DNA of 46,070 nt from an uncultured Clostridia bacterium (lineage in GTDB: Bacteria; Bacillota; Clostridia; Lutisporales; Lutisporaceae): positions 1 to 46,070 of the forward strand of contig CALGKJ010000134.1 of assembly GCA_937930535.1 (NCBI GenBank), in the 5' to 3' direction. The position numbers and the translations under genes are program-made. The stretch's first letter is position 1. Each line of letters starts with the position of its first letter. This document shows positions 7,588-46,025 of the stretch, piece after piece. The notes under the pieces are model-generated. The model had not been told where the DNA came from and searched no databases. It saw only the letters and a list, made by a program, of their open reading frames with translations.

Positions 7588-10017
7588 ATGGCTGTAAGAA
7601 AAAGTGAGTTGTATAGTTCTTTATGGAATGGTTGTGATGAGCTTAGAGGTGGTATGGATGCCTCTTTATATAAGGATTACGTTTTAACACTACTATTCGT
7701 AAAATATGTTACTGATAGGTTTATGGGAGATCGCTATGCTGCAATTGAGATACCCGCCGATGGAAGCTTTAATGACATGATTAAAGCAAAGGGAAAGAGC
7801 AACATAGGCGAAAGGATGAATATAATAATCAAAAATCTTGCTGATGCCAATAGACTTACTGGAATTATTGATGTTGCCGATTTTGATGATGATAATAAAC
7901 TTGGCAGCGGGAAAGATAAAGTTGATAAGCTTACAAATCTAATTTCCATATTTCAAAATGAAAAGCTAGACTTCCGAAAAAACAAAGCTGGCGGAGATGA
8001 TATCATAGGAGATGCATATGAGTATCTAATGAAAAACTTTGCTACCCAAAGCGGTAAAAGCAAAGGTCAGTTCTATACACCGGCGGAAGTTTCAAGGATA
8101 ATGGCTAAGGTTATTGGGGTTAGTAAAGCCACGGTTGCATCTCAAACAATATATGACCCAGCGTGCGGGTCGGGTTCGTTGCTTATTAGAGCGGCAGACG
8201 AAGCACCAAATGGTATTACAATATATGGACAAGAGTTTGACCCTACTACTGCTGGTCTTGCAAAAATGAACTTGGTATTGCATAACAAGTCTACAGGGAA
8301 AATAGTTAGTGCAAATACCCTATCTACACCAAAATTTACGACTAAGGATTCCATAGACAGATTTGATTTTGCTGTTGCTAATCCGCCCTTCTCATATAAA
8401 TCATGGTCAAATGGTATTGATACCAGCAGCGATATACGTTTTGCTGGATATGGAGCTGTACCACCTGCTAAAAATGGTGATTATGCATGGTTATTGCACT
8501 TTATTTATTCTTTAAAACCACAAGTAGGTAAAGGGGCTATTATTCTACCCCATGGTGTATTATTCCGTGGAAATGCAGAAGCAATAATAAGAAAAGAGAT
8601 TATCAAAAAGAAAATTATTAAAGGCATAATAGGCTTACCTGCTAACCTTTTTTTTGGTACAGGTATTCCAGCTTGTATAATTGTAATTGATAAAGAAAAT
8701 GCAGCAGCAAGAACAGGCATATTTATGATAGATGCCAGCCGAGGCTTTATAAAGGATGGCAATAAGAATAGGCTTAGGGAACAAGACATTCATAAAATTG
8801 TTGATTGTTTTAATAATTCTATCGAAATACCTAAATATTCTCGTATGATTCCGTATTCAGAAATAGAAGCCAATGAGTACAACCTAAATATACCACGCTA
8901 TATTGATACCAGTGGAACAGAGGATTTACAAGATATATTAGCCCATCTTCTAGGAGGATTGCCAAAGCATGACATTGATGAGCTATTACCATACTGGAAA
9001 GTTTTCCCTACCTTGAAGTCACAGTTGTTTGATACCCTTGATAGAGAGGGGTACTTGAAGTTAAAGGTGAGTAAGGATGATATACGCAAAACTATTTATG
9101 GCAATAAGGAGTTCATTGACTATGCATTGAAAATAGATGAAGCTTTCAAATCATGGAAGGATAGCCAATATAAAAAATTAAACAATATTAAAGAGGGTCA
9201 AAACCCGAAAACTTTTATTATAGAGATTTCAAATGCAATTTTAGATGAATTTTCTAATCTAAAGCTTATTGATAAGTATGATGTGTACCAATGCTTAATG
9301 TCATACTGGGAAGAAACAATGCAGGATGATGTTTATGCTATAGCTTTTGACGGATGGGAAGCTGGCAATGATGTTGAGCGTGAAATGGTTAAAAGAAAAG
9401 ATGGTACAGTAACAGGGAAGATGAAATCCTTTGAAGGCAGGGTAATACCTAAAAAGCTGATTATAGAAAATTATTTCCAAGAAAAACAGAATACAATAAA
9501 CCAACTTGAAAGTGAGCGAGACGAAGTAATTAGACTTATGGATGAGCTTAGAGAAGAGCATGGAGGAGACGAAGGGCTACTTTGTGAAGTTATAAATGAC
9601 AAAGGAAATATAACCAAAGGAGACCTTCAAAATCGAATCAAACAGATTAAGAGAGATATAGCATTGACTGATGAACTTGAGGTGTTGTGCCAGTATGAAA
9701 AATTAATGCTAAACGAGGCAAATTATAATACTAAAATAAAAAATGCAGTAGAAGAACTTAATAAATGTGTCCTTGATAAATACAGTAAACTAAACATTGC
9801 TGAAATAAAAGTGCTTGTTGTAGAAAAGAAATGGTGTAGTGCTGTTTTAAATGCCGTTGATGCAATTTATTCCGAGATTTCTCATAAGCTTACTAATCGT
9901 ATTATAGAGCTTGTTGACAGATATGAGGAAACACTTCCGCATATTGAAAAGGAAGTATCGGAGTATGAAAATAAAGTGAAAGCTCATCTTGAAAGGATGG
10001 GGTTTTTATGGGAATAA
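7588..10017 (+). CDS. hsdM: Type I restriction-modification system, methyltransferase subunit
   Basis: The 809-aa product is the N6-adenine methylating subunit of a type I system. An HsdM N-terminal helical domain (about 5-130) is followed by the methyltransferase fold: GQFYTPAEVSRIM near 160, the AdoMet motif DPACGSG at about 190-196, and the catalytic NPPF at about 265. The C-terminal third (about 600-809) is highly charged and helical (QLESERDEVIRLMDELREE), making the protein longer than the usual HsdM of roughly 500 residues; this extension probably joins HsdS or HsdR. AAAGGGGAG precedes ATG. It overlaps hsdS by 10 bases, so the two are likely translationally coupled. Confidence 0.95.
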   Translation: MAVRKSELYSSLWNGCDELRGGMDASLYKDYVLTLLFVKYVTDRFMGDRYAAIEIPADGSFNDMIKAKGKSNIGERMNIIIKNLADANRLTGIIDVADFDDDNKLGSGKDKVDKLTNLISIFQNEKLDFRKNKAGGDDIIGDAYEYLMKNFATQSGKSKGQFYTPAEVSRIMAKVIGVSKATVASQTIYDPACGSGSLLIRAADEAPNGITIYGQEFDPTTAGLAKMNLVLHNKSTGKIVSANTLSTPKFTTKDSIDRFDFAVANPPFSYKSWSNGIDTSSDIRFAGYGAVPPAKNGDYAWLLHFIYSLKPQVGKGAIILPHGVLFRGNAEAIIRKEIIKKKIIKGIIGLPANLFFGTGIPACIIVIDKENAAARTGIFMIDASRGFIKDGNKNRLREQDIHKIVDCFNNSIEIPKYSRMIPYSEIEANEYNLNIPRYIDTSGTEDLQDILAHLLGGLPKHDIDELLPYWKVFPTLKSQLFDTLDREGYLKLKVSKDDIRKTIYGNKEFIDYALKIDEAFKSWKDSQYKKLNNIKEGQNPKTFIIEISNAILDEFSNLKLIDKYDVYQCLMSYWEETMQDDVYAIAFDGWEAGNDVEREMVKRKDGTVTGKMKSFEGRVIPKKLIIENYFQEKQNTINQLESERDEVIRLMDELREEHGGDEGLLCEVINDKGNITKGDLQNRIKQIKRDIALTDELEVLCQYEKLMLNEANYNTKIKNAVEELNKCVLDKYSKLNIAEIKVLVVEKKWCSAVLNAVDAIYSEISHKLTNRIIELVDRYEETLPHIEKEVSEYENKVKAHLERMGFLWE

Positions 10018-11186
10018 GGGAAGGGTATAAAAGAACAGAGGTTGGGGTTATACCCGAGGAATGGGAGTGTTTATCAATTGAAGATTGTGCGTTGATAAAG
10101 ACTGGGGGTAGAAATAATGAAGATAAGAAAAATAATGGACAGTATCCATTTTTTGTTAGGTCACAGCAAATTGAAAAAATAGATTCTTTTACATTTGATT
10201 GTGAAGCGGTTTTGACAGCAGGGGATGGTGTTGGAACGGGTAAGGTTTTTCACTATATAGATGGTAAGTTTAATGCTCATCAAAGAGTTTACATAATATT
10301 TGATTTTATAAAAATTAATGCTAAGTACTTTTATTACTATTTTAGTAGTAATTTTTATGCTGAAGTTTGTAAATATACAGCTAAATCTTCAGTTGATTCA
10401 GTTCGGAGAAATATGATTGCTAAAATGCTATTACCTATTCCCACAGTGCCTGAACAGCAAGCAATAGCTACTATGCTATCTGATATTGATCTGCTTATTA
10501 ACTCAATTATAAAATTAATTGATAAAAAGAGAAATATCAAGCAGGGCGTAATGAAAGAGTTACTTACAGGTAAGAAAAGGCTTCCTAAATTTGGCGGAGA
10601 TTGGGAGCTTGTTATTTTAAAAGAGATTATTTTAAATTTTATAGTCCCTATGAGGGATAAACCTATAGATTTAAACGGAGAGATTCCATGGTGTAGAATT
10701 GAAGATTTTGATGGGAAGTATCTGAGCCAATCCAAGTCTGCGCAAGGAGTCTCGGAAGATACCATTAAATCTATGAATCTGAAGGTGCATCCTATTGGAA
10801 CATTATTAGTATCTTGTAGTGCATATTTAGGAAGATGTGCTATTGTTAAAAGAGAATTAGTTACTAACCAGACTTTTATAGGATTAGTTCCTAGTAATCT
10901 AGTAAATGTTGAATATCTTTACTATGTAATGCAATGGGAAGAACGTAATTTGAATGAATTAGCGTCAGGTACGACCATTAGATACTTATCAAAGGAGCAG
11001 TTCGGAAATTATAAAATTTGCTTACCAAGCTACCAAGAACAAACAGCAATAGCTAATTTTCTATCTAATCTAGACAACGAAATTGATGTACTTAATCAAA
11101 AGCTAAACAAATACAGGAATATCAAACAAGGAATGATGCAGGAACTATTAACCGGACGAATCAGATTGGTGAAGGAGGGTATGTAA
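10008..11186 (+). CDS. hsdS: Type I restriction-modification system, specificity subunit
   Basis: The 392-aa protein determines the DNA target. It has two target-recognition domains (about 15-150 and 205-345), each followed by a helical spacer containing a repeated sequence: EQQAIATMLSDIDLLI with RNIKQGVMKELLTGKKRL, and EQTAIANFLSNLDNEIDV with RNIKQGMMQELLTGRIRL. This internal repeat is the hallmark of HsdS and predicts a bipartite recognition site. The two recognition domains are unlike each other, so the site should be asymmetric. No frameshift or nearby spare hsdS or invertase gene is seen, so no phase-variable shuffling is evident here. Confidence 0.95.
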   Translation: MGIREGYKRTEVGVIPEEWECLSIEDCALIKTGGRNNEDKKNNGQYPFFVRSQQIEKIDSFTFDCEAVLTAGDGVGTGKVFHYIDGKFNAHQRVYIIFDFIKINAKYFYYYFSSNFYAEVCKYTAKSSVDSVRRNMIAKMLLPIPTVPEQQAIATMLSDIDLLINSIIKLIDKKRNIKQGVMKELLTGKKRLPKFGGDWELVILKEIILNFIVPMRDKPIDLNGEIPWCRIEDFDGKYLSQSKSAQGVSEDTIKSMNLKVHPIGTLLVSCSAYLGRCAIVKRELVTNQTFIGLVPSNLVNVEYLYYVMQWEERNLNELASGTTIRYLSKEQFGNYKICLPSYQEQTAIANFLSNLDNEIDVLNQKLNKYRNIKQGMMQELLTGRIRLVKEGM

Positions 11187-34628: not shown

Positions 34629-35414
34629 CTAGTTTGGGGATTTACCATCTATACGCACTTTCCCCAAACCGGCTGTAACCTTAATGGTGGTATTATCATT
34701 AATAATATCCAGTGATTTAGTAGTAAATTGTGCTTCGTTGCTGCTGGTTCTATATACAAAGCTTTTAGGAAGCTTTATATCAATAGAACCTATATCGGTA
34801 CTTAAATCAATTTTTTGAGCATTTATTATATTACTTAAGTTGATGTCCAAGCTGCCATTGCCGGTGACAATGCTGGAATCACCTTCAATAGCAACATTTG
34901 ACAGCTTTATTTTGCCTATATCAGTTTTCAGGTATAATACAGCCTGTGCACCGCTAATATCTATGCCTCCTATTTCACTATTTACGTTATACAGCTTGAT
35001 GTTTTTCGGTACATGCACTATGTAGCTTACGGAGATATTTGTATCCTGCAAATTCCCGTCCTTCCAATCCCACAAATCTACAGTTTCATCTGAGGCTGTT
35101 ACTGCTTTTAACATTGCTTTGCTGCCTTCCTTGTATACTCTGATTTTTATATTTTCCATAATAGAATTTTCTAAGCTTTTATCCTTGCATTTGACTTTCT
35201 TGACAGCTTCGATGCTTAAAATATCATTGGAAGCTTGCTTTATTTCGATGCTTCCAACCCTGTTCATGATTTGAAGCTCTATACAACCGGACGAATTTAG
35301 TGTCAGCTTTTCTTTTTTAGTATATTCTCCTGAAAACACACTGCAACCCCCCAAGCTTACTATCAAAGTAATTATAATGCATATTAACGATACGGCTTTT
35401 AGTTTCCTCATCAT
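34629..35414 (-). CDS. DUF4097-type lipoprotein
   Basis: The 261-aa protein begins with a lipoprotein signal (ICIIITLIVSLGGC, Cys24). The rest is made of repeating beta-strands typical of DUF4097, with short segments such as SSGCIELQIMNRVGSIEI, NVNSEIGGIDISGAQAVLYL and TDIGKIKLSNVAIEG; a right-handed beta-helix is expected. Such proteins are anchored outside the membrane, and many are near envelope-stress regulators. GGAGGAG precedes ATG 35414; ATG 35411 directly follows and is as good. Ligand or partner unknown. Confidence 0.88.
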   Translation of the reverse strand: MMRKLKAVSLICIIITLIVSLGGCSVFSGEYTKKEKLTLNSSGCIELQIMNRVGSIEIKQASNDILSIEAVKKVKCKDKSLENSIMENIKIRVYKEGSKAMLKAVTASDETVDLWDWKDGNLQDTNISVSYIVHVPKNIKLYNVNSEIGGIDISGAQAVLYLKTDIGKIKLSNVAIEGDSSIVTGNGSLDINLSNIINAQKIDLSTDIGSIDIKLPKSFVYRTSSNEAQFTTKSLDIINDNTTIKVTAGLGKVRIDGKSPN

Positions 35415-35481: not shown

Positions 35482-35534
35482 GAGAAACAACTTCAAAATT
35501 GAATTTTTTCAGTTGTTTCTCACAAATAGATCAG
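35482..35534 (+). repeat. Dispersed two-hairpin repeat, copy with broken second hairpin
   Basis: First hairpin intact: GAGAAACAACT (35482-35492) and its complement at 35511-35521. The following ACAAATAGATCAGCA is the start of the second hairpin, which then breaks off. The 35415-35848 stretch otherwise holds only this, a promoter and AT-rich sequence. Confidence 0.75.
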
Positions 35535-35848: not shown

Positions 35849-35980
35849 ATGAAGTTTATTGTTAAGCCTGCGTTAAACCTTACAACTGGTTACTGCTTCG
35901 GCTGCGGCGAAAGATATTGCGAAGTAGTATGCACTAACAATTGCACTATCGTATGCACAATAGATTGTATGATGAATTAA
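35849..35980 (+). CDS. Cys-rich peptide precursor 1, 43 aa
   Basis: Starts MKFIVKPALNLTTGYC with ribosome binding site AGAAGGG upstream. The leader-like first 15 residues precede seven Cys at 16, 19, 24, 28, 32, 36 and 40. From Cys24 on, every fourth residue is Cys over five positions, the most regular of the array. This is the longest member and ends CMMN. Likely substrate of the radical SAM maturase downstream; the pattern resembles the Clo7bot family of clostridial Cys-rich peptides. Confidence 0.8.
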   Translation: MKFIVKPALNLTTGYCFGCGERYCEVVCTNNCTIVCTIDCMMN

Positions 35981-36018
35981 AAGCGCGGGTTATTATTTAT
36001 GTAAAGAGGTGAGTACAA

Positions 36019-36132
36019 GTGCTTTATATTATGAAACCACAGAATAAGTTTATTACTGGTTACTGTGTTGCATGCAAACATTGTGAGGACTGCGGAAATA
36101 ACTGTAACGTACAATGCTGGACGAAAATTTAA
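36019..36132 (+). CDS. Cys-rich peptide precursor 2, 37 aa, GTG start
   Basis: Starts at GTG 36019, which lines up exactly with the ATG of the other copies (read MLYIMKP), after AGAGGTG. Cys at 16, 19, 22, 25, 29 and 33, a mix of three- and four-residue spacing. A later ATG would cut the leader, so GTG is the start. Confidence 0.78.
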   Translation: MLYIMKPQNKFITGYCVACKHCEDCGNNCNVQCWTKI

Positions 36133-36159
36133 TAAAAAATTGTTGGGAGGATGCTAACA

Positions 36160-36273
36160 ATGAAGTATATTGTTAAGCCTACAGCAGTATTTAACTATGG
36201 ATATTGCTATTGCAGCCATTGTGATAATTGCACAACCAAGTGCAATGACAAGTGCAATCCATATTACACATAA
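36160..36273 (+). CDS. Cys-rich peptide precursor 3, 37 aa
   Basis: MKYIVKPTAVFNYGYC, after TGGGAGG. Cys at 16, 18, 21, 24, 28 and 32. The first spacing is CxC instead of CxxC. The tail ends NPYYT. Confidence 0.8.
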   Translation: MKYIVKPTAVFNYGYCYCSHCDNCTTKCNDKCNPYYT

Positions 36274-36301
36274 TTTAAAGTTGCTGATAGGAGGTTAGAT
36301 T

Positions 36302-36412
36302 ATGAAATACATTGTCAAACCTTTAGACCGTATGAACAAAGGATACTGCTATTGCAGTCAATGTGATAAATGCGATTTATGCAATCTATGCAGTCCTAAG
36401 ATTAATGTCTAA
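36302..36412 (+). CDS. Cys-rich peptide precursor 4, 36 aa
   Basis: MKYIVKPLDRMNKGYC, after AGGAGG. Cys at 16, 18, 21, 24, 27 and 30, so every third residue from Cys18 on. Ends CSPKINV. Closely related to precursor 5. Confidence 0.8.
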   Translation: MKYIVKPLDRMNKGYCYCSQCDKCDLCNLCSPKINV

Positions 36413-36435
36413 TAGTGGACAAAGGAGTAGATAGT

Positions 36436-36543
36436 ATGAAATATATAGTAGAGCCAACAAGTAAAACTCTAAGCGGATATTGTTATTGCAGTGACTGTAA
36501 TTACTGCGATAAGTGTAATGTGTGCAGCCCTAAATATGTCTAA
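36436..36543 (+). CDS. Cys-rich peptide precursor 5, 35 aa
   Basis: MKYIVEPTSKTLSGYC, after AAAGGAG. Cys at 16, 18, 21, 24, 27 and 30, same every-third-residue frame as precursor 4; ends CSPKYV. Glu replaces Lys at leader position 6. Confidence 0.8.
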   Translation: MKYIVEPTSKTLSGYCYCSDCNYCDKCNVCSPKYV

Positions 36544-36576
36544 ATTACAGACATAATTTAAGGAGGAGGTGAAAAT

Positions 36577-36702
36577 ATGAAATTTGTAGTAAAGCCAGCA
36601 AGCAAATTTGAACTAGGTTGGTGCAACGCATGTACAAATAACTGCCATAACGACTGCGGAAAGCAAAGTGGTTGCGGTTACTGTTCAGCGTATACTAATT
36701 AG
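36577..36702 (+). CDS. Cys-rich peptide precursor 6, 41 aa
   Basis: MKFVVKPASKFELGWC, after AGGAGGAGGTG. Cys at 16, 19, 23, 27, 33 and 36, with a Gly-rich KQSGCGYC segment unlike the others. Trp replaces Tyr before the first Cys. Nearly identical to precursor 7, with which it forms a recent duplicate. Confidence 0.82.
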   Translation: MKFVVKPASKFELGWCNACTNNCHNDCGKQSGCGYCSAYTN

Positions 36703-36741
36703 TTATTACTAACTAAAGACTAATCAAAAGGAGGTGAAAAT

Positions 36742-36867
36742 ATGAAATTTGTAGTAAAGCCAGCAAGCAAATTTGAACTAGGTTGGTGTAACGTATGTAC
36801 AACAAACTGCCATAACGATTGCGGCAAGCAAAGCGGTTGCGGTTACTGTGCATCATACCAATACTAA
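36742..36867 (+). CDS. Cys-rich peptide precursor 7, 41 aa
   Basis: Duplicate of precursor 6 including its ribosome binding site region. Differences are few: A18V, N21T, and the tail (SAYTN becomes ASYQY). Same six Cys positions. Confidence 0.82.
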   Translation: MKFVVKPASKFELGWCNVCTTNCHNDCGKQSGCGYCASYQY

Positions 36868-36921
36868 TTAGCGTTTTTAGCTGATTAGCAAAAAAATTTT
36901 TAAATGAAAGGGGAAAGAAAT

Positions 36922-37032
36922 ATGAAATATATCGTAAATCCAAAAGATATGTTCGTTATAGGCTACTGTGTTGCATGCGGTGGAAACTGCGACAACAGAT
37001 GCCAGGATCAATGCCTTATAGTTTCAGCGTAA
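36922..37032 (+). CDS. Cys-rich peptide precursor 8, 36 aa
   Basis: MKYIVNPKDMFVIGYC, after AAAGGGG. Cys at 16, 19, 23, 27 and 31, the four-residue class. Ends CLIVSA. Nearly identical to precursor 9, from which a repeat element and a hairpin separate it. Confidence 0.82.
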   Translation: MKYIVNPKDMFVIGYCVACGGNCDNRCQDQCLIVSA

Positions 37033-37085
37033 TTGGAGCACTGCTTAATACATAGTATATGAGCGAGTTTTAAATATCTTTTAAA

Positions 37086-37183
37086 GAGAAACAACTTCAA
37101 AATTAAATTATTCCAGTTGTTTCTCACAAATAGATTAACAACTCTTAACGAAAAGTAATTTGAGTTTTAGAGTTGGTTATCTA
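37086..37183 (+). repeat. Dispersed two-hairpin repeat, complete copy inside the array
   Basis: Hairpin 1: GAGAAACAACT (37086-37096) with its complement at 37115-37125. Hairpin 2: TAGATTAACAACTCT (37131-37145) with AGAGTTGGTTATCTA (37169-37183), one mismatch region. This is the fullest copy and the reference for the family. Confidence 0.82.
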
Positions 37184-37192
37184 CAATCAGAA

Positions 37193-37218
37193 GGCATGCA
37201 GTTAACTAACTGCATGCC
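37193..37218 (+). other. Hairpin next to the repeat in the peptide array
   Basis: GGCATGCAGTTA (37193-37204) pairs with TAACTGCATGCC (37207-37218). No T run follows. It stands between precursors 8 and 9, after the repeat. Could stop or process the transcript. Confidence 0.45.
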
Positions 37219-37299
37219 ATCCACTACTAATGTATGGCTATATAATAATATAGTGTATGTACATATAAAGTACTAAAAGTACTAAAAGGAGTGAAAGAA

Positions 37300-37410
37300 A
37301 TGAAATATATCGTAAATCCAAAGGATATGTTTGTTATAGGCTACTGTGTAGCATGTGGTGGAAACTGCGACAACAGATGCTCAGATCAATGCCTTATAGT
37401 TAGCCCGTAG
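37300..37410 (+). CDS. Cys-rich peptide precursor 9, 36 aa
   Basis: Same as precursor 8 apart from Q28S and A36P, with Cys at 16, 19, 23, 27 and 31. Ribosome binding site AAAGGAGTG. A duplicate of precursor 8 on the other side of the repeat element. Confidence 0.82.
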   Translation: MKYIVNPKDMFVIGYCVACGGNCDNRCSDQCLIVSP

Positions 37411-37423
37411 TAGGGGTGATGTT

Positions 37424-37543
37424 ATGAAATATATAATTAAGGCTCAAAGTAAGTTTTCAAAGGGTTATTGCTTAGTTTGCGTTGACAATTGTCGTAATGA
37501 CTGTATAACCCAATGCGTATATTATGGTCAAACAACTAAGTAA
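37424..37543 (+). CDS. Cys-rich peptide precursor 10, 39 aa
   Basis: MKYIIKAQSKFSKGYC, after AGGGGTG. Cys at 16, 19, 23, 27 and 31, then a polar tail VYYGQTTK. Pro7 of the leader is Ala here. Fourteen bases after precursor 9. Confidence 0.8.
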   Translation: MKYIIKAQSKFSKGYCLVCVDNCRNDCITQCVYYGQTTK

Positions 37544-37563
37544 ATATTTAAATGTTTTTTAGG

Positions 37564-37612
37564 TTTACAGTAATTGAGCTGGTAGTACTCCTAGCAGCTC
37601 AATTACTGTAAA
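37564..37612 (+). other. Long hairpin between the peptide array and the maturase gene
   Basis: TTTACAGTAATTGAGCT (37564-37580) is exactly complementary to 37596-37612, 17 bp, loop of 15 with extra pairing. It is followed by AAGG, not T, so it is more likely an mRNA-stabilising or partly attenuating element than a strong terminator. It would keep peptides abundant and the maturase low. Confidence 0.7.
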
Positions 37613-37685
37613 GGTATAAGGATGAAAAAACTATAGCTATACAAAAGTAATACTAAATAATATGCAAATGAAAGGGGTACACAAT

Positions 37686-39041
37686 ATGAAGGCTTCAAAG
37701 TATAACATGTTTTGGACACTTGAAGACGGAACTAAAATAGCATTTAACAGCATGACCTGTGCTCTGGCAGAGATAGATGACAACTTTATGGAAGTACTTG
37801 ACAATATAGAAAATATTAATATGGACGAGCTTAATGATGAAAAGAAAAAATTAGTTGAAGATATGCTAATGGGTAACTTTATAATAAAAGACAGCTTTGA
37901 CGAACTGAAGGTTATAAAGTACAGACATTTTGCAGGCAAGTTTAACAGCGATGCCCTAGGCTTGACAATAGCTCCAACTTTGGCTTGCAACTTTGCATGT
38001 CCATACTGCTATGAAAATCCTAAAAAGGGTATGATGAGCCAAGAGGTTCAGGATGCAATATTAGAGTTTGTGACTGAAGCCGCAAAAAGAAGAAAAGATA
38101 TAAGCATAACATGGTACGGAGGAGAACCGCTCCTTGCAAAGGATATAATATTTGATTTATCAGAAAAGATGATTAAGGTATGTGAAGAAAACGGTGCCAA
38201 ATATGGATCTTACATAGTAACTAACGGTTATTTGATAACTGATGAAATTATAGAAAAAATGAAAGCTGCTAAAATAGGCGGTGCACAAATAACTATAGAC
38301 GGACCGCCGCATATTCATAATAAGAGAAGAATATTAAAGGGCAGTGATGAGCCTACCTTTGATATCATAATGAATAATGTTAAGAAGCTAATGGATAATG
38401 GTATTAGAAACATAGGTATCAGAATAAATGTAGATAAAACCAATATCGAATACCTGGAAGAGCTTTTAGACTTATTAGTAGCCAATGGCTTAAAGGACAC
38501 AAGCATTGGTCTAGGACATGTAAATGCATACACAGAAGCTTGCACCTCCATTGCAGAAGCCTGCATGAATACAGAAGAGTATGCTATGAAGAATGTAAAA
38601 TACCAAGAAATATTACATAATAAGGGCTTCCATGCACAAGGATATCCTTACTATCCCGGCATAAAAGCTAACTACTGCTGTGCAGATTCAACCAGTGCAT
38701 TTGTATTAGATCACGAAGGATATATGTATAAGTGCTGGAACGACGTTGGAACTGTAGATAAAGCAGTAGGACAAGTAACAAAGATCAAGGAAGCTCCAGA
38801 AGAAGATATGTACATGAGAAATGTAAACTATATATTCTGGTCACCATTTGATCATCAAGAATGTATAGATTGTAACCTGCTTCCAGTATGTATGGGAGGA
38901 TGTCCATTTAACGGAAGTAGAAATGGTCTCAAGCCAGAGTGCGAAAAGTGGAAATACAATTTAGAGGATGTATTGAAGCTTACTTATTTACAAAAGAAGG
39001 ATTGCCCAGAAGAAGCATGTTCAACATGCGGCTGCCAATAG
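37686..39041 (+). CDS. ccpM: Radical SAM/SPASM peptide maturase (CcpM type)
   Basis: The 451-aa product is a radical SAM enzyme likely to modify the ten Cys-rich peptides. An N-terminal leader-binding-like part (1-90) precedes the radical SAM core with the cluster motif CNFACPYC (Cys101, 105, 108), WYGGEPLL (about 143-150) and TNGYLITDE. The SPASM region has Cys331/332, 350, 393, 396, 402, 406 and 419 for auxiliary iron-sulfur clusters. The tail ends in CPEEACSTCGCQ, four extra Cys. Start ATG 37686 follows AAAGGGG; ATG 37662 has no ribosome binding site. Its length, SPASM plan and position behind a Clo7bot-like array match the Cys-rich peptide maturase CcpM. The bond it makes is unknown; thioether crosslinks are the usual outcome of this group. 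Confidence 0.9.
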   Translation: MKASKYNMFWTLEDGTKIAFNSMTCALAEIDDNFMEVLDNIENINMDELNDEKKKLVEDMLMGNFIIKDSFDELKVIKYRHFAGKFNSDALGLTIAPTLACNFACPYCYENPKKGMMSQEVQDAILEFVTEAAKRRKDISITWYGGEPLLAKDIIFDLSEKMIKVCEENGAKYGSYIVTNGYLITDEIIEKMKAAKIGGAQITIDGPPHIHNKRRILKGSDEPTFDIIMNNVKKLMDNGIRNIGIRINVDKTNIEYLEELLDLLVANGLKDTSIGLGHVNAYTEACTSIAEACMNTEEYAMKNVKYQEILHNKGFHAQGYPYYPGIKANYCCADSTSAFVLDHEGYMYKCWNDVGTVDKAVGQVTKIKEAPEEDMYMRNVNYIFWSPFDHQECIDCNLLPVCMGGCPFNGSRNGLKPECEKWKYNLEDVLKLTYLQKKDCPEEACSTCGCQ

Positions 39042-39079
39042 GTTAGGTATAGTTATACTATGAAGCTTATTTGATTTTT

Positions 39080-39135
39080 TATAGAAAGCACTAATGAATA
39101 CAGATTATTTGTCTTATTCTTATGTGCTTTCTATA
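39080..39135 (+). terminator. Hairpin after the maturase gene
   Basis: TATAGAAAGCAC (39080-39091) pairs with GTGCTTTCTATA (39124-39135). The loop is long (32 bases) and no T run follows, so termination is likely partial. Confidence 0.5.
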
Positions 39136-39189
39136 CATATTCAAACAGTGATACAATTAATTATATAATAATAATTAAGCTAGGGTGTT

Positions 39190-39825
39190 ATGATGAAGGA
39201 TTTTAGAAAATTCAAAGATATAGGTATTAATTTTAGTGAGCCAGAGGTTTTGCCATGTTTATATAAAGAGGATTATTGGTTGGAAAAAATCAGAACCATA
39301 CGAGAAGTGTTTGGTTTCAAAAGCAGAGTAAATATTAAAGCTGTTGACAGTGTGGAAGAATTATCAGACTGCCTTGGTGTAAAAGCTCCTTCATGGGTTA
39401 TTGGAGCATACTGCGGTAATTATATTTTTATGTTAAAATATGAGCTGTGGCAGTCAAGGAATCTGGGCACATTTGCTCAGGTAATGACTCATGAATTTAC
39501 CCATATTGCAATCAACAGCAAACTAAAGCAGAGATGTCCTGTATGGCTTAATGAGGGACTAGCCCTCTATTTTGCTGAGCAGTATAAGACGATACGACTA
39601 AAGAGAGAGAATATATCAAAAGAAGATATATATGAAATAGATTACTTGGACAATTGTTTGTACGATATAAGCGCAAAGGCTGTGGAAAAATTAGCAGATA
39701 CCTATGGTATTACTGCAATAGTTAAAAGCCTAGGCATATCCACTGACTTTGCAGAAGATAAGATTCTCGGTGTAGAGAACATGAAAAGAATTTTAAGTGA
39801 AATGAAAAATTCCAGCACACAGTAA
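39190..39825 (+). CDS. Gluzincin-type metallopeptidase (peptidase MA-like)
   Basis: The 211-aa cytoplasmic protein has MTHEFTHIAI with zinc ligands His101 and His105 and catalytic Glu102, then PVWLNEGLALYFAEQ giving the third ligand Glu122. This is the HExxH-(about 16)-E plan of the M1-like peptidase MA group. No signal peptide. It directly follows the maturase and the exporter downstream has no C39 peptidase domain, so it is a good candidate to remove the 15-residue leaders. This is inference from context. Start ATG 39190 or the next ATG, after AGGGTG. Confidence 0.8.
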   Translation: MMKDFRKFKDIGINFSEPEVLPCLYKEDYWLEKIRTIREVFGFKSRVNIKAVDSVEELSDCLGVKAPSWVIGAYCGNYIFMLKYELWQSRNLGTFAQVMTHEFTHIAINSKLKQRCPVWLNEGLALYFAEQYKTIRLKRENISKEDIYEIDYLDNCLYDISAKAVEKLADTYGITAIVKSLGISTDFAEDKILGVENMKRILSEMKNSSTQ

Positions 39826-39852
39826 CACGTAAAGACTATTCTTTACGTGTTA
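39823..39852 (+). terminator. Hairpin overlapping the peptidase stop
   Basis: TAACACGTAAAG (39823-39834) pairs with CTTTACGTGTTA (39841-39852). The stop codon is part of the stem. No T run follows, so read-through to the acetyltransferase is possible. Confidence 0.55.
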
Positions 39853-39882
39853 TAGTACTTATATAGAAAGAGAGTGAAAGCT

Positions 39883-40386
39883 ATGGATTTTATAATAAGA
39901 GAAGCTGTATTAGATGATTTGGATGCCATAATCAAGCTTTGGTATGAGCTTATGAAGGATCAAATGGGGAAGGATCCATACTATGAGGGACCATTAGAGT
40001 TTACTGGCGGACAGCAGCAATTTACAAATGCATTACAAAATCCAAACTGCGGTATTTTCGTGGCAGAAGCAGATAATAAAATAGTGGGCTTTATTGAGAT
40101 ATGGCTGAAAAACAAGGATTTTTACTTCTTTGTTGATGATTATGCATACATACTCCATTTTATGATTACTGAGGAGATTAGAAGGGACAGAAGAATATAC
40201 GCCGTAAATCATCAGCTTTATAAAGCGGCTGAAGCCTGGGCTGAGTCTAAAGGCAGCAAATATCTTGCCGCTGATGTTTTTGCCCATAACGAAGTAGTTC
40301 AAAAGCTGCTGATGAATCGTGCAAACATGGATTTATATAGAATGAGGCTGGTAAAAAAACTTGATAATGAGAATGGTGATGAATAA
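39883..40386 (+). CDS. GNAT family N-acetyltransferase
   Basis: The 167-aa product has the GNAT layout: DFIIREAVLDDLDAIIKLW start, GIFVAEADNKIVGFIEIW (strands 2-4), an acetyl-CoA region around ITEEIRRDRRIYAVN that lacks a clear Q/RxxGxG/A loop, and a C-terminal SKYLAADVFAHN. GTG 39874 is possible, but ATG 39883 has better family alignment. Overlaps the ABC gene by one base. In this locus it could acetylate peptide, leader or a partner, which is speculative. Confidence 0.82.
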   Translation: MDFIIREAVLDDLDAIIKLWYELMKDQMGKDPYYEGPLEFTGGQQQFTNALQNPNCGIFVAEADNKIVGFIEIWLKNKDFYFFVDDYAYILHFMITEEIRRDRRIYAVNHQLYKAAEAWAESKGSKYLAADVFAHNEVVQKLLMNRANMDLYRMRLVKKLDNENGDE

Positions 40387-42131
40387 TGAAGGAATTTATT
40401 AATAAAATACACAAACTTATAAAGCAATATATGACCTTGGAAGTAATAGGACTAATGTTAACAGCCTTGTATACACTGGCTATTTTTGGCTCACCCCTTG
40501 TATCCAAGTACCTTATAGATGAGGTTATACCCGGGAACTCCTTTACCAAGCTTTATATAGGCTTGGGGATATTCTTTGCTGTATGTGCAGCACAGCCAAT
40601 AGTAGGATATTTTAAGGATATTCTCTTTATGAATATAACGGAGAATGTAACTCGAGATATTAGAAAATCTTTATTTTCAAAGGTTATCGGCGCACCCTTA
40701 AAATTCTTTGATAGTACAAAAAAAGGTGAAATCGTATCAAGAATAGTAAACGATGGACGGGCAGCCAGTGAATTTATAACAAATTTCTTTGTAATCTTTG
40801 TCAAAAATGTTATATTAATAATAATGATAATTATAGGGATGCTTTTAATGTCTGTAAAATTGACCAGTATAGTTCTGTGTTTATTTGTGATATTTTTCGT
40901 CATAAATTTTACCCTCAGCAAGAAGTTCAGCAAAATGTCAATGGAGCAGCAAAAAAACTATGATGCCATATGTATATCCATAAGTCAAATGGCAGAATCC
41001 ATAGTTACAATAAAGGCTTTCTTGTCAGAGGAAGAAATAAAAAACAAATACCATGAGCTTTTATCAAAAATCTATAAAGACAATAAGAAAATCAGGTCAC
41101 TGCATATTCTTCTGAATAATTTGACTAATGTATTGGTAGTGCTTTCTCTAAGTGTCATATATGGTATAGGAACATTATCCATAATGAAGGAAGAAGTAAC
41201 CCTAGGAACAGTAATATCAATGGGCTTATATTTCCAACTATTGGTTCAGCCTGTTTATGAGCTGCTAAACAATAACATTGAGCTGAGAAAAACCATGCCG
41301 ATATTTGATAGAATATATGAATATTTTGATATGGAAAATGAGACATATTCTTATGACTCCAGCGTAAAATTAGAAGGAGAAATAAAGGTAGACAATCTGA
41401 GCTTTGCTTATAAGGATGACAGCGTACAATCACTCAATAATATCAATATGAAAATTCCCAGCAAAGGACTTTTTGCATTTGTAGGTCATTCAGGTGCAGG
41501 AAAAAGTACCTTGGTAAAGCTGTTAATGAGATTGTATGAACCGACTCAGGGAACTATAAAAATTGGAAGTACCAATATAAGTAATCTTGAAGTTAACAAG
41601 CTGAGAGAAAATATCAGCTTTGTGCCCCAAGAGGTTAACCTTTTTAATGCAAGCGTTAAGGATAACATCAGGTGCGGCAACAAAGAGGTAACAAATGAGG
41701 ACATAACAAGAGTATGCAAAAAGCTTAAGCTGCATGACAAGATACTCAGTCTGCCAGAAGGCTATGACAGTATTATTACAGAGCGTGTCAACCTTTCCGG
41801 CGGAGAAAAACAGAGGGTATCCATTGCCAGAGCACTGGTCAGAAGACCTGGGATTTTTATTTTGGACGAACCAACAGCGGCACTTGATCCGGAAAATGAA
41901 TTGATAATCAGGGATACTATAGAGACCTTGGCAAAGGATAGCATAGTTATAGTTATAGCCCATAGAATTTCTACTATAATAAACGCAGACAAGATATTTG
42001 TATTTGAAAACGGCAGTATAGCAGAAAGCGGAGACCATAACGCACTAATAGCCAAGAAGGGTATATATGCTGACTTTGTACTGAATAATGATAAGTCAGA
42101 TGAAGATAAAGCTAGTAAAAAGACAACATAA
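40386..42131 (+). CDS. ABC exporter, fused membrane and ATPase domains
   Basis: The 581-aa half-transporter has a six-segment membrane domain (about 15-310) and an ATPase domain with GHSGAGKST (about 364-372), LSGGEKQRV (about 470) and FILDEPTAALD (about 488). This is the MsbA/LmrA plan, without an N-terminal C39 peptidase. In the RiPP locus it most likely exports the modified peptide. The start overlaps the acetyltransferase stop (AATAATG). It forms a homodimer or pairs with an unseen partner. Confidence 0.9.
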   Translation: MKEFINKIHKLIKQYMTLEVIGLMLTALYTLAIFGSPLVSKYLIDEVIPGNSFTKLYIGLGIFFAVCAAQPIVGYFKDILFMNITENVTRDIRKSLFSKVIGAPLKFFDSTKKGEIVSRIVNDGRAASEFITNFFVIFVKNVILIIMIIIGMLLMSVKLTSIVLCLFVIFFVINFTLSKKFSKMSMEQQKNYDAICISISQMAESIVTIKAFLSEEEIKNKYHELLSKIYKDNKKIRSLHILLNNLTNVLVVLSLSVIYGIGTLSIMKEEVTLGTVISMGLYFQLLVQPVYELLNNNIELRKTMPIFDRIYEYFDMENETYSYDSSVKLEGEIKVDNLSFAYKDDSVQSLNNINMKIPSKGLFAFVGHSGAGKSTLVKLLMRLYEPTQGTIKIGSTNISNLEVNKLRENISFVPQEVNLFNASVKDNIRCGNKEVTNEDITRVCKKLKLHDKILSLPEGYDSIITERVNLSGGEKQRVSIARALVRRPGIFILDEPTAALDPENELIIRDTIETLAKDSIVIVIAHRISTIINADKIFVFENGSIAESGDHNALIAKKGIYADFVLNNDKSDEDKASKKTT

Positions 42132-42168
42132 ATGCTAATACAGACATTATATTTTTAGGGAGGGCAAG

Positions 42169-44640
42169 ATGAGAATATATATAAAATTAGCAATGAGAAA
42201 TCTAATGAGAAAAAAGCTCAGATATTTACTATTATTTTTAACCTTTATATTATCGTCACTGACATTAATGACCTCTCTATTCTTTAAGGATGCAGCCATT
42301 ATGTCCAGAGAAGACAAGCTTAGGACTGAGACCTTAAACAGTCAGATACTAATTAGATCAGCTAATATGGAAGCTCCATATTTTGATAAGACTGAAACCA
42401 TGGATAAGCTTGTCGGTGTCAGTGGTATAGCCTATGCTGTGCCGAGAATGAGTATAGGAGCTAATTTTGATTCAAAGGATGGAGAGCTGGTAACCTTGAT
42501 AGGAACTGATTACAGCCTGCAATCCAAGATTTTCAGCTTCGACATAATTGAGGGCAGTAATTTTGAACCCTTTGAAGATAAGGTCATAATCGGTGAAGGC
42601 TTTGCAAAGGCGAATGGACTGGTATTAAATGATACAATCAGCTTTTACTATGATAATAGAGTAGAGGATTTTAAAATAGCCGGCATAGCAAAGGATGAGG
42701 GGATATTTACCTATAATGGCATGATAGTCGCCCCCTTTAAGGAAGTGCAGCAGCTATACAGACAGGGAAACAAAGCTTCAACAATAGGAATAACCTTGGA
42801 AAAACTAGACGAAATAGCAATCGTAAAGGACAGCTTAAAGCGAGCACTGGGGAGAAGCTTTATCGTCGAAGAACGGTATGATCTTGAGTTTTACAAGACC
42901 TTTGTTGGAACTATAGAAATGGCAGTCAACATATTTGCATGCTTTGCCATATTTATAACCTTGTTTTTAACTTATTCAACCTTTAAAACCATTATATTCG
43001 AGAGAATTAATGAGATAGGTACATTAAGAAGCATAGGTACAACCAAGAAAGAAATTTTCATAAGCATATATACCGAAAACTTTCTTCTGGTGCTTGTATC
43101 TTCCATTGCAGGGATACTTGTCAGCATACCCTTTATTAAGCACCTATTAAGAATGTTTATACAAAAAGAAATTATCATGGAGCTGGATGTAATAAAGATT
43201 TCCTATATATTCGTTGGTATGCTGGTGGTAGGACTTCTTAGTATTATTACATCTATGCTTAAGGTAATGAACATACCTGTGGTAGATATCATTAAGGGAA
43301 ATATAAAGAAGGAGCTGAAAGCCTCAAAGCATTTAAGATCAATATTAGGTATAGCATTGATGGGGGCTTCCATTTACGCTTTATATTTTTACGAAAAATC
43401 AGAAAGCGGGCTTATATATCTGCTTACAGGCTTAACCGCCTTTGTATTGGCATTTATACTGCTTATTGAGCTTTTACATAGACTTCTGAATGCAACCTTG
43501 TTCAGGCTGTTCAGCTTCATAGGACCTGAGGTGAGGCTGGTGCTAAAGGAATTCAGAAGGGACTTTGCAAAGTCAACCCAGTCCATCGTATTAGTAACAA
43601 TAGTTATTGCAATAGCATACCTAAGCTTTGTATCCTCCTATCTGGTTGGGGAGGCTGTAAATAAGGTGTATGGCGATATAGACATATATCTGAAAGGAAT
43701 TAACTCTGAGGAAGCAATTGACGGCAGGTTAAGCAGTATTTCTGGTGTAGACAGCATTGTATCACAGCTTAGAACAAATAGAAAAATCAATAATATTGAT
43801 GTAGAAATTTCCGGCATAGAGCCTGATAAATACAGTGAGGTTTCCTTTGAAGTATTTAAAAGCAGCAGTAAGGAAGAGGCTCTAAGCAAGCTTAAAGAGG
43901 GCAGAAGCGTAATAGTAACAACAACCTTCTTGAAAAACAGTAAAAAGAAGGTTGGAGATTATATAGCAATAAGAACAGGTGAGGAATACGTTGACTACAA
44001 GATAGTTGATGTATGCAGCAGCTTTGAAAATATGGGAAAGGTATTATTTATATCCAAGGATAACTTTATAAAGGATATTATACATAATAACCATATACTT
44101 TATCTTGTGAAAACAAAGGAAGGCTATGATCCTGAACAAGTATTAGCCAGCATAGAGGATGAACTGAGGGACGATGAATATGAAAGTATTATTACTCTAA
44201 AGCAAATGTTCAGGGAAAACCAAAAGGAAAATGACAAGCTGTTTTTACTTATAAATGCACTGTTCTTTATTTCTGCATTTGTTAGTATTATATGTCTTAA
44301 CAATAACTTGATTATAAACATACTTACAAGAGCAAGAGTGTATGCCATTGAAAGAACTATCGGAATGTCGAAAGCACAGCTTCGCAAGGTAATCACCTTT
44401 GAAGGAATGATGCTTTGTATAGAGGGCGGAATCCTAGGGCTTATACTAGGATGCTTTATGAATATTTATCTGGTAAGAATTTTGTCCTTTTACATAGGAG
44501 ATTTGGCGATTACCATTAACTATATGATAATAGCTGTGCTTATTGGAGTATCTGTATTAATCGGACTGATAAGCGGAATATATCCGTATAATAAGATGTG
44601 CAAAATGAACATAGTTCAAGCTATCAAAGGATTCGAATAG
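42169..44640 (+). CDS. FtsX/MacB-type ABC transporter permease, 823 aa
   Basis: Large permease with two FtsX-like halves. An N-terminal segment (residues 17-38) and a long extracytoplasmic domain (about 45-245) precede three to four membrane segments; the second half has another extracytoplasmic domain (about 500-680) and ends in membrane segments and IVQAIKGFE. The IMSREDKLRTE to YDLEFYK part is typical of bacteriocin-immunity and MacB-like transporters. It works with the ATPase encoded next, whose coding start follows 11 bases later. It may give self-immunity to the Cys-rich product or act as a stress sensor. AGGGAGGG precedes ATG. Confidence 0.88.
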   Translation: MRIYIKLAMRNLMRKKLRYLLLFLTFILSSLTLMTSLFFKDAAIMSREDKLRTETLNSQILIRSANMEAPYFDKTETMDKLVGVSGIAYAVPRMSIGANFDSKDGELVTLIGTDYSLQSKIFSFDIIEGSNFEPFEDKVIIGEGFAKANGLVLNDTISFYYDNRVEDFKIAGIAKDEGIFTYNGMIVAPFKEVQQLYRQGNKASTIGITLEKLDEIAIVKDSLKRALGRSFIVEERYDLEFYKTFVGTIEMAVNIFACFAIFITLFLTYSTFKTIIFERINEIGTLRSIGTTKKEIFISIYTENFLLVLVSSIAGILVSIPFIKHLLRMFIQKEIIMELDVIKISYIFVGMLVVGLLSIITSMLKVMNIPVVDIIKGNIKKELKASKHLRSILGIALMGASIYALYFYEKSESGLIYLLTGLTAFVLAFILLIELLHRLLNATLFRLFSFIGPEVRLVLKEFRRDFAKSTQSIVLVTIVIAIAYLSFVSSYLVGEAVNKVYGDIDIYLKGINSEEAIDGRLSSISGVDSIVSQLRTNRKINNIDVEISGIEPDKYSEVSFEVFKSSSKEEALSKLKEGRSVIVTTTFLKNSKKKVGDYIAIRTGEEYVDYKIVDVCSSFENMGKVLFISKDNFIKDIIHNNHILYLVKTKEGYDPEQVLASIEDELRDDEYESIITLKQMFRENQKENDKLFLLINALFFISAFVSIICLNNNLIINILTRARVYAIERTIGMSKAQLRKVITFEGMMLCIEGGILGLILGCFMNIYLVRILSFYIGDLAITINYMIIAVLIGVSVLIGLISGIYPYNKMCKMNIVQAIKGFE

Positions 44641-44651
44641 GGGGTATACAT

Positions 44652-45320
44652 GTGACAATACTGCGAGCTGTAGATTTATATAAGGATTTTAATAGTGAAG
44701 GCAATATAACCAAGGTACTTAACAATATAAAGCTTGAAATAGAAGAGGGTAAGTTTATATCCATAATGGGACAGTCCGGCTCAGGCAAAAGTACACTGCT
44801 GTATGTACTCAGCGGCTTGGAAAAACCAACAACAGGCAATGTCTTTTTTGAGGATAAGGATTTGTCCATGCTAAGTGATAATAAGCTGAGCTTGATAAGG
44901 AGAAAGAGCTTTGGCTTTGTATTTCAATTTTACAATCTTATTCCTACGCTGACTGTTGAGGAAAACATTACTCTTCCACTAGAGCTGGATGGGGTCAAAA
45001 AGAAGCAATATAAGGAGAGTCTGGATAATGTACTAAGTACTATAGGCTTATCTGATAAGAGAAAAAGCTTCCCCTATCAGCTATCAGGAGGACAGCAGCA
45101 AAGAGTTGCAATCGGTAGAGCATTAATAACTGACCCGAAGATTATTTTTGCCGATGAACCAACAGGAAACCTAGACTCCAAAACAGGTGAAGAGGTGCTG
45201 CAACTGCTTAAAAAGTTAAGTGCTGAAAAAGGCAAGACTGTACTTATGGTAACACATGATAATTATGCAGCTTCCTTTACAGATACAACAATATATATCA
45301 AGGATGGAAAAATAGTATAA
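44652..45320 (+). CDS. ABC transporter ATPase (LolD/MacB-type)
   Basis: The 222-aa ATPase has MGQSGSGKSTLLYVLSGL (Walker A), the Q-loop region GFVFQFYNL, LSGGQQQRVAIGRAL (signature) and IFADEPTGNLDSKTG (Walker B with the LolD-like PTGNLD). VTHDNY closes the site. GTG 44652 has GGGG 10 bases before, and earlier in-frame starts lie within the permease gene. It pairs with the FtsX-type permease. Confidence 0.92.
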   Translation: MTILRAVDLYKDFNSEGNITKVLNNIKLEIEEGKFISIMGQSGSGKSTLLYVLSGLEKPTTGNVFFEDKDLSMLSDNKLSLIRRKSFGFVFQFYNLIPTLTVEENITLPLELDGVKKKQYKESLDNVLSTIGLSDKRKSFPYQLSGGQQQRVAIGRALITDPKIIFADEPTGNLDSKTGEEVLQLLKKLSAEKGKTVLMVTHDNYAASFTDTTIYIKDGKIV

Positions 45321-45335
45321 TTGGAGATTAAACAT

Positions 45336-46025
45336 ATGGATGAGATTAGAAATATACTATTGCAAAACATAGATAGCTTTAACAACAGCAATGAGAGCAT
45401 TTATATGAAATTGCAGGATAATAATTTGATAGAGCAAGAGTATATTGACTTTGGAATTGATTATAGATTGAATGATGTGCGTTATAAAGACTCTGTGCTG
45501 CTGTTTTATTACATAGATAAACATACCAATGATATATTGGCAGCACTAAACATAGTAGCTTTCAATAGAAAGCAGTTTGCAGATATTTGCTTCTGGAATT
45601 TTAAGCCCGAGGAAAAGCTGTTAAAAAAGGTCAGTTTAGATGATTTTAAAGGCTATACTGGTGATTATGCAATAACCTTAGGATTTGCCAAAAGCTCGGA
45701 GCGGCTTAGAAAAAACTATAAGATTAAGTACTTAAGCACAATCTCCTATATACAAATAATTAACGATATACAGAGCAAAACAAATACCCTCATATTTGCT
45801 GAAACTACGGGTATTGAGATCTTAAAGGCTGATAAGGTTATCAGCAGCTCAGTAATATATGAAGGTGAAAATACCTTTAACAGCCAAAGTCTTGGAGTTA
45901 CTAGAAAAGAAAGCAGACCTGCTGATAAAATGGCAAGAGTATTGAATTTTAGAAAAGCAGATAATGTCTACAATCTATGGACCTTAGGAAAGGTATATTT
46001 TAGTAAGGATTTATACTTGGATTAG
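45336..46025 (+). CDS. Hypothetical protein, 229 aa
   Basis: ATG 45336 follows TTGGAG at normal distance; an in-frame TTG at 45321 is less likely. The cytoplasmic protein has no signal or membrane segment. It looks alpha/beta, with YIDKHTNDILAALNIVAF and NTLIFAETTGIEILKADK as likely strand-helix elements, which vaguely suggests a GNAT-like or acyl-transfer fold, but I cannot assign it. It follows the ATPase gene by 15 bases, so it is probably the last gene of the peptide locus. The final bases 46026-46070 show no further gene start. Confidence 0.7.
   Translation: MDEIRNILLQNIDSFNNSNESIYMKLQDNNLIEQEYIDFGIDYRLNDVRYKDSVLLFYYIDKHTNDILAALNIVAFNRKQFADICFWNFKPEEKLLKKVSLDDFKGYTGDYAITLGFAKSSERLRKNYKIKYLSTISYIQIINDIQSKTNTLIFAETTGIEILKADKVISSSVIYEGENTFNSQSLGVTRKESRPADKMARVLNFRKADNVYNLWTLGKVYFSKDLYLD

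Follow-up and report, generated by a model that had tools for sequence, protein, structure and literature searches.

What a tandem array of ten short Cys-rich genes in front of a single radical SAM enzyme produces, and by which chemistry, is the question raised by the window analysed here, a whole contig of 46070 bases (G000:C134). The reading that we favour, and hold to be rather likely, is a Clo7bot-type RiPP cluster with cross-linking by the maturase CtpM, a peptidase and export. The product would very probably be a RiPP with thioethers made by the radical SAM enzyme. New here are a predicted cross-link register, evidence for a conserved product of several peptides and a conserved peptidase partner.

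The Clo7bot locus and its maturase

The ten short ORFs form a tandem array on the plus strand (35849–37543), with a purine-rich ribosome-binding site before each and start codons that are ATG in nine and GTG in one. The exception is precursor 2, for which the GTG at 36019 (MLYIMKPQNKF...) was taken as the start instead of the internal ATG at 36031; this choice gives the precursor back the shared MxYIxKP leader (MLYIMKPQNKFITGYC). The leader common to all ten comprises ca. 15 residues, MKYIVKP...GYC. The array is followed, after a gap of 142 nt and on the same strand, by genes for the maturase, a peptidase-like protein, a GNAT enzyme, an exporter, an FtsX-type permease, an ATPase and an orphan. 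The initial annotation had named the ten precursors, maturase, peptidase, GNAT enzyme, exporter and FtsX-type ABC pair, and all of them were found where it had placed them; its point that many precursors belong to a single maturase is likewise borne out, the ten lying in tandem directly upstream of ctpM. Since the contig ends at 46070, the 3′ part of the cluster may be absent from the window. The features are listed below; core Z values refer to comparisons with the related C. senegalense locus, in which the core was defined as the sequence from the first Cys onward and cores were compared between loci against shuffles holding the Cys positions.

34629–35414, minus strand: DUF4097-like (beta-strand repeat) lipoprotein with a lipobox-like N-terminus, transcribed away from the array; may belong to the cluster or serve in immunity
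35849–35980, plus strand: Clo7bot precursor 1; CX3C type with 7 Cys; C. senegalense precursor 5 is its orthologue (core Z 6.2, reciprocal best)
36019–36132, plus strand: Clo7bot precursor 2; 6 Cys; GTG start; TIGR04333 37.3 bits
36160–36273, plus strand: Clo7bot precursor 3; 6 Cys; TIGR04333; weak orthology to C. senegalense 6
36302–36412, plus strand: Clo7bot precursor 4; CX2C array; TIGR04333
36436–36543, plus strand: Clo7bot precursor 5; CX2C array; TIGR04333; core Z 3.0 to C. senegalense 8
36577–36702, plus strand: Clo7bot precursor 6; TIGR04333 50.9 bits; orthologue of C. senegalense 2 (core Z 7.2); recent duplicate of 7
36742–36867, plus strand: Clo7bot precursor 7; TIGR04333; core Z 8.8 to C. 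senegalense 2
36922–37032, plus strand: Clo7bot precursor 8; TIGR04333; orthologue of C. senegalense 1 (core Z 6.2)
37300–37410, plus strand: Clo7bot precursor 9; TIGR04333; near-copy of 8; core Z 7.1 to C. senegalense 1
37424–37543, plus strand: Clo7bot precursor 10; TIGR04333; C. senegalense 4 is its orthologue (core Z 3.8, reciprocal best)
37557–37619, plus strand: long stem-loop in the gap between array and ctpM; 29-nt arms, 86% complementary
37686–39041, plus strand: CtpM, Clo7bot radical SAM/SPASM maturase; TIGR04334 775 bits, cut-off 600
39190–39825, plus strand: gluzincin-type zinc-peptidase-like protein, cytosolic, candidate leader peptidase; HEFTH...WLNEG; fold match
39883–40386, plus strand: GNAT acetyltransferase; PF00583 37 bits
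40386–42131, plus strand: ABC exporter (permease-ATPase) without a peptidase domain; PF00664 and PF00005
42169–44640, plus strand: FtsX/MacB-type permease; PF02687, PF12704; 34% identical in C. senegalense
44652–45320, plus strand: ATPase of the FtsX-type transporter, GTG start; PF00005
45321–46025, plus strand: orphan protein of 234 aa, final gene ahead of the contig end, membership uncertain

In a search of the whole 4.69-Mb genome, each of the ten precursors scored above the cut-off of the Clo7bot precursor model TIGR04333 (36.2–50.9 bits; cut-off 31 bits) and nothing else in that genome did; none of 14 control genomes contained a sequence over the cut-off. As the genome-wide search gives these ten alone, the array lies far past chance. 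CtpM matches the Clo7bot maturase model TIGR04334 with 775.4 bits over positions 1–438 of 440 (cut-off 600), in agreement with the Clo7bot-kind RiPP locus that had been proposed. A resemblance to CcpM had also been suggested, and this did not hold: membership of that family (TIGR04068) is ruled out by a score of 83.6 bits against a cut-off of 500, TIGR04334 being the correct model. The next-best models, both named for Cys-rich substrates, are TIGR04463 (331.4 bits, cut-off 525) and CefB (Cys-every-fifth; 272.9 bits, cut-off 600); CtpM falls below the cut-offs of both, as it does for the PapB ranthipeptide model NF047865 (139.2 bits, cut-off 340), the QhpD-type model (96 bits, cut-off 453) and the SCIFF model TIGR03974 (86.6 bits, cut-off 425). 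We conclude that the locus is a genuine, complete-looking and large member of the known Clo7bot RiPP family and no new kind of system. In the literature searched, no publication names Clo7bot or CtpM, and none on Paraclostridium and ranthipeptides deals with such a system, which agrees with the earlier statement that the chemistry is uncharacterised; as far as this search shows, Clo7bot is a curated database family of models without a published product or chemistry.

CtpM carries the radical SAM motif CX3CX2C as CNFACPYC (PF04055, 79 bits) and a canonical seven-Cys SPASM pattern (C332...GX4C350...CX2CX5CX3C...C419), both of which are kept in six relatives. The nearest solved structure by sequence is CteB, the ranthipeptide maturase of the SCIFF (thermocellin) system (5wgg; profile E 9.4e-23). 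The alignment begins at residue 15 and takes in the N-terminal region, which suggests that this region of CtpM is a leader-recognition domain, as in CteB. An AlphaFold model of CtpM built from six sequences was of low confidence (pLDDT 55) and was left out of the fold search, so the case for this domain is the similarity to CteB. CtpM would probably read the ca. 15-residue leader through its N-terminal region and then, probably, make several S–C cross-links per peptide.

The Clo7bot family is rare. A maturase over the TIGR04334 cut-off was found in one of 391 genomes of the class and in one of 398 of the phylum, both times the genome of the window itself, and in one of 207 genomes in the family of C. 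senegalense; the other 21 same-family genomes contained none, and no Clo7bot relative was found in viral contigs. Related loci lie on Paraclostridium bifermentans plasmids (e.g., NZ_CP079738, NZ_CP094934; L025 is a P. bifermentans locus), and a scan of species genomes gave a Clostridia MAG (L028) with the closest maturase (66% identical to CtpM), C. senegalense JC122 (L029, 62%), P. benzoelyticum (L030) and P. ghonii (L031). Since that scan was built on two peptide patterns, the locus count is a lower bound. A divergent locus in a Coriobacteriia MAG (L032) has a maturase of 51% identity that is below the cut-off. Clo7bot loci, rare and with their precursors in tandem, differ in this from the SCIFF systems, which are widespread in clostridia.

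There are nine precursors in L028 and in P. bifermentans, eight in C. senegalense and, in loci cut by contig ends, at least seven in P. benzoelyticum and at least five in P. ghonii; with 8–9 in related loci, the ten of the window are not exceptional for Clo7bot. The P. bifermentans locus shares with the window leader-sharing tandem Cys-rich precursors before ctpM (60%), the peptidase (34%) and the exporter (48%). It differs in having nine precursors instead of ten, while GNAT and separate FtsX and ATPase genes lie downstream in the window, and the window cores are mostly non-orthologous to Paraclostridium cores. The resemblance to C. senegalense extends over the maturase (62%), peptidase (40%), exporter (49%), GNAT (47%), FtsX permease (34%) and ATPase (58%), together with at least three clearly orthologous core types; here the differences are eight precursors in another order and a second GNAT.

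Several further observations concern the maturase genes. The C-terminal tail of CtpM (window positions 39000–39038), where the family model ends or has already ended, is rich in Cys; such tails (e.g., CSTCGCQ, CEKGCCSCG) also occur in L025 and L028–L031 and are absent from the Coriobacteriia relative L032. In one P. bifermentans plasmid (L026, CP124691.1), ctpM is annotated as two overlapping frames (8983–10351), so the gene is broken or misread in that record. Two further proteins are encoded in the genome of the window, a maturase that is probably of the SCIFF type and a radical SAM protein distantly similar to CtpM, with 162 bits to TIGR04334 (G000:C36:24584-25660, G000:C166:20560-21849).

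The stem-loop region at 37557–37619 folds with −38.1 kcal/mol (z −4.9) and is without a T-run. A comparable stem between array and maturase is present in L028 at 9835–9984 (z −3.7), and the other loci have none. It is possibly a transcript end or a processing or stability element. A separate hairpin repeat (AGAAACAACT, 16–19 bases, AGTTGTTTCTCACAAA) occurs at 2536–2579, 35483–35526 and 37087–37130, the last copy lying between precursors 8 and 9. Genome-wide there are 94 copies with exact arms, some of them paired 102 bases apart, against none for a reversed control pattern; being dispersed over the genome, the repeats near the array were rejected as part of the system.

Cysteine spacing and the predicted cross-links

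A Cys–Cys spacing of four residues was counted 126 times against 30 expected. The residues following Cys were analysed in 32 non-redundant cores with 164 Cys+3 positions. Gly, Ser, Thr and Pro are depleted at Cys+3 (17 of 164 versus 49.8 expected, Z −6.6) and Asn, Asp, Tyr, Lys, Arg, Gln, His and Glu are enriched there (115 versus 74 expected, Z 7.4), with Asn, Tyr, Asp and Lys as the usual occupants; the second strongest offset, +7, is an echo of the four-residue period. At Cys+4 the latter group is seen 55 times against 58 expected, i.e., a pattern of the freyrasin type, whose register is CX3D/E (PMC9413430), is not found. The residue ahead of Cys at other spacings is often Gly, and depletion at +3 is similarly strong where the next Cys is at +4 (Z −4.5) and where it is not (Z −4.0), so the +3 rule is more than an effect of the residue before the next Cys. 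It extends to the last Cys of 48 precursors: none of these ends before +3, four end exactly at +3, and Gly, Ser, Thr or Pro occupies this position in 1 of 48 against 12.4 expected. By lineage, the depletion has p 0.017 in the window, 0.0025 in the MAG and 0.0002 in Paraclostridium, and is weak in C. senegalense (p 0.07). The offset and the residue class were chosen post hoc, in a test without a known-link positive control; with a dozen offsets tried, the pooled effect is still strong enough to withstand correction. A search for the PapB family gave matches below the cut-off alone, probably SCIFF maturases.

The simplest reading of the +3 rule is that Cys i would be linked to residue i+3 as acceptor, and we put the chance that this CX2X* register is the true one at about even. 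The links would most likely be thioethers from Cys i to residue i+3, not in the CX3D register of freyrasin, with Asn, Tyr, Asp, Lys, Arg, Gln, Val and Phe as X* acceptors. Freyrasin and its enzyme PapB are alike in that a SPASM radical SAM enzyme acts on repeated Cys motifs of a short peptide; they differ in that freyrasin uses CX3D/E, whereas the spacing conserved in Clo7bot is CX2X* with varied residues, a register predicted from sequence. Among other known peptides, the joined residues of thermocellin lie five positions apart, and in NxxC peptides the link runs three positions backwards (PMC8326336). The avoidance of Gly and Pro together with varied accepted side chains would fit attack at C-beta, and C-alpha would be compatible as well.

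We regard it as rather unlikely that the links made by CtpM in the CX2X* spacing are of the sactipeptide type (S to C-alpha) instead of the C-beta or C-gamma links of ranthipeptides. Sactipeptide synthases tolerate varied acceptors, those predicted here are chemically diverse, and the PDB matches of CtpM include the sactipeptide maturase SkfB; however, the relatives of known chemistry that stand nearer are two non-alpha enzymes, PapB (139 bits) and QhpD (96 bits), the best PDB match is CteB, and Gly is avoided at +3.

CX2C arrays, which make up precursors 4 and 5 and stretches of the other precursors, put Cys at +3, so that many Cys would be without an acceptor under the +3 rule. Across the window precursors 21 of 58 Cys have Cys at +3, and precursors 4 and 5 have an eligible +3 residue for one of six Cys each. 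Cysteines with Cys at +3 may be free, disulfide-forming or metal-binding. The two CX2C-array precursors, along with conserved cores that would fit a structural role, are what speaks for metal-binding or Fe–S/thiolate peptides in which CtpM modifies few positions and most Cys stay free for metal. We find this quite improbable as an account of the product, because ordinary metal sites do not explain the CX3C period of most cores or a +3 rule that holds even at the last Cys. The thioether register at i+3 turns a linkage without known chemistry into a specific prediction, Cys i to i+3 with countable 2-Da losses per peptide. If it is true, an enzyme able to couple Cys to many different side chains would be of use as a tool for cyclising peptides.

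Conservation of the precursor cores

Orthology to C. senegalense precursors is clear for 6/7, 8/9 and 1 (core Z 6–9); it is weaker for precursors 10 (Z 3.8) and 5 (Z 3.0) and weakest for 3 (Z 2.2). At least three core types are common to the two loci, with 54–73% identity and saturated synonymous sites. For precursor 6 the core is 69% and the leader 53% identical (core dN 0.23, synonymous sites saturated), and for precursor 8 the values are 62% and 47%. Cores that are better kept than their leaders at saturated synonymous sites indicate purifying selection, not recent transfer. Core dN is below dS in the within-locus duplicates as well, where the sequences are very short and single values rough. 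Precursors 6 and 8, with the most conserved cores, stand out as first candidates for study.

Ten cores per enzyme, with 6/7 and 8/9 as recent duplicates, recall a natural combinatorial library in which one maturase serves freely diversifying cores, as with prochlorosins. L028 would fit such a library: its CtpM is nearest (66%), yet few of its cores match and they are largely non-orthologous, which means that the set of precursors changes independently of the maturase. We nevertheless think a library improbable, since core dN lies well below dS in duplicates and orthologues alike and the cores of precursors 6 and 8 are more conserved than their leaders against C. senegalense; free diversification of the cores is disfavoured by these ratios. 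The product thus appears to be a set of distinct peptides that has been conserved, and no random library.

In recent duplicates (window 36564–36867; L025, L030), pooled synonymous differences amount to 5 of 41 sites in the leader and 31 of 101 in the core (Fisher p 0.03). The lower leader divergence would reflect leader homogenisation or an RNA constraint at the start of the gene.

Partner genes and the proposed fate of the peptides

All five Clostridia loci examined have the peptidase-like gene after ctpM (34–40% identical), with HEFxH and WLNEG invariant across the five. Its predicted structure (AlphaFold pLDDT 82) matches collagenase (M9) peptidase units with Z 12.6 over 199 of 211 residues (VIA-align), then M30 and M1; Pfam MA_2 scores 20 bits, below its cut-off of 32. 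No signal sequence is evident in the protein, and the exporter lacks a C39 domain, so the simplest reading is a cytosolic leader peptidase. M1-type zinc proteases cut the leaders of class III lanthipeptides (PMC10885120). Like these AplP-type enzymes, which are zinc-dependent leader peptidases, the window protein has the gluzincin HExxH...NE pattern and an M1/M9/M30-like fold; unlike them, it is only 211 aa long, has no M1 family match over the cut-off and always adjoins ctpM. We hold it probable that this gluzincin-type enzyme (39190–39825) takes the leader off in the cytosol, and count against it that the fold is common to enzymes of many functions.

The peptides would then be carried out by the exporter, which is present in the four loci long enough to show it (L025, L028, L029 and L031; 48–53% identical). 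As had been noted before, it is without C39: the only transporter domains in the search were PF00664 (from residue 21) and PF00005. GNAT homologues adjoin ctpM in L028, L029 and L030 (39–47% identical); a GNAT downstream of the P. bifermentans cluster proved to be a different one. Close counterparts of the FtsX permease (34%) and its ATPase (58%) occur in C. senegalense only, and P. bifermentans (L025) has an ATPase-permease fusion with 38% identity to the window ATPase. This ATPase scores 215 bits against the bacteriocin exporter model TIGR03608, under the cut-off of 255. Of the pathway of synthesis, trimming, export and immunity outlined in the initial annotation, the peptidase and the exporter stand as conserved partners and the GNAT enzyme in three loci, whereas the FtsX transporter has a close counterpart in C. 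senegalense only. The GNAT enzyme and the FtsX transporter might serve product tailoring or protection of the producer.

The DUF4097-like lipoprotein matches no Pfam or NCBIfam model. It aligns with DUF4097-type proteins beside ctpM in P. bifermentans (L025), P. ghonii (L031) and C. senegalense (hhalign E 9e-7, 27%, 169 columns). In C. senegalense the gene is within the operon, whereas in the window it is divergent and stands outside it, which makes its membership of the cluster uncertain. The orphan at 45321–46025 has no Pfam or NCBIfam match and no homologue in the related loci.

As to the role of the exported peptides, we see an even balance between a secreted antagonist on one side and a signal or metal binder on the other. 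A self-signal would resemble the SCIFF-derived ranthipeptides of solventogenic clostridia, which have been tied to quorum sensing (Chen et al. 2020, as cited in PMC8326336), and cross-genus conservation of the cores would fit a signal that is shared. This reading is not a likely one: Clo7bot maturases are patchy and rare among the class and phylum genomes, unlike SCIFF, each strain has eight to ten different cores, again unlike SCIFF, and next to the window cluster neither a regulator nor a sensor pair was seen. The boldest picture we can offer is a tentative one, on which we would not insist: four-residue CX2X* thioether rings made by CtpM on diverse acceptors, up to six in series in a single peptide, in about six conserved, exported polycyclic peptides that would act together.

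Elsewhere in the window, a c-di-AMP riboswitch (RF00379, 82.7 bits) lies at 2101–2270 on the minus strand.
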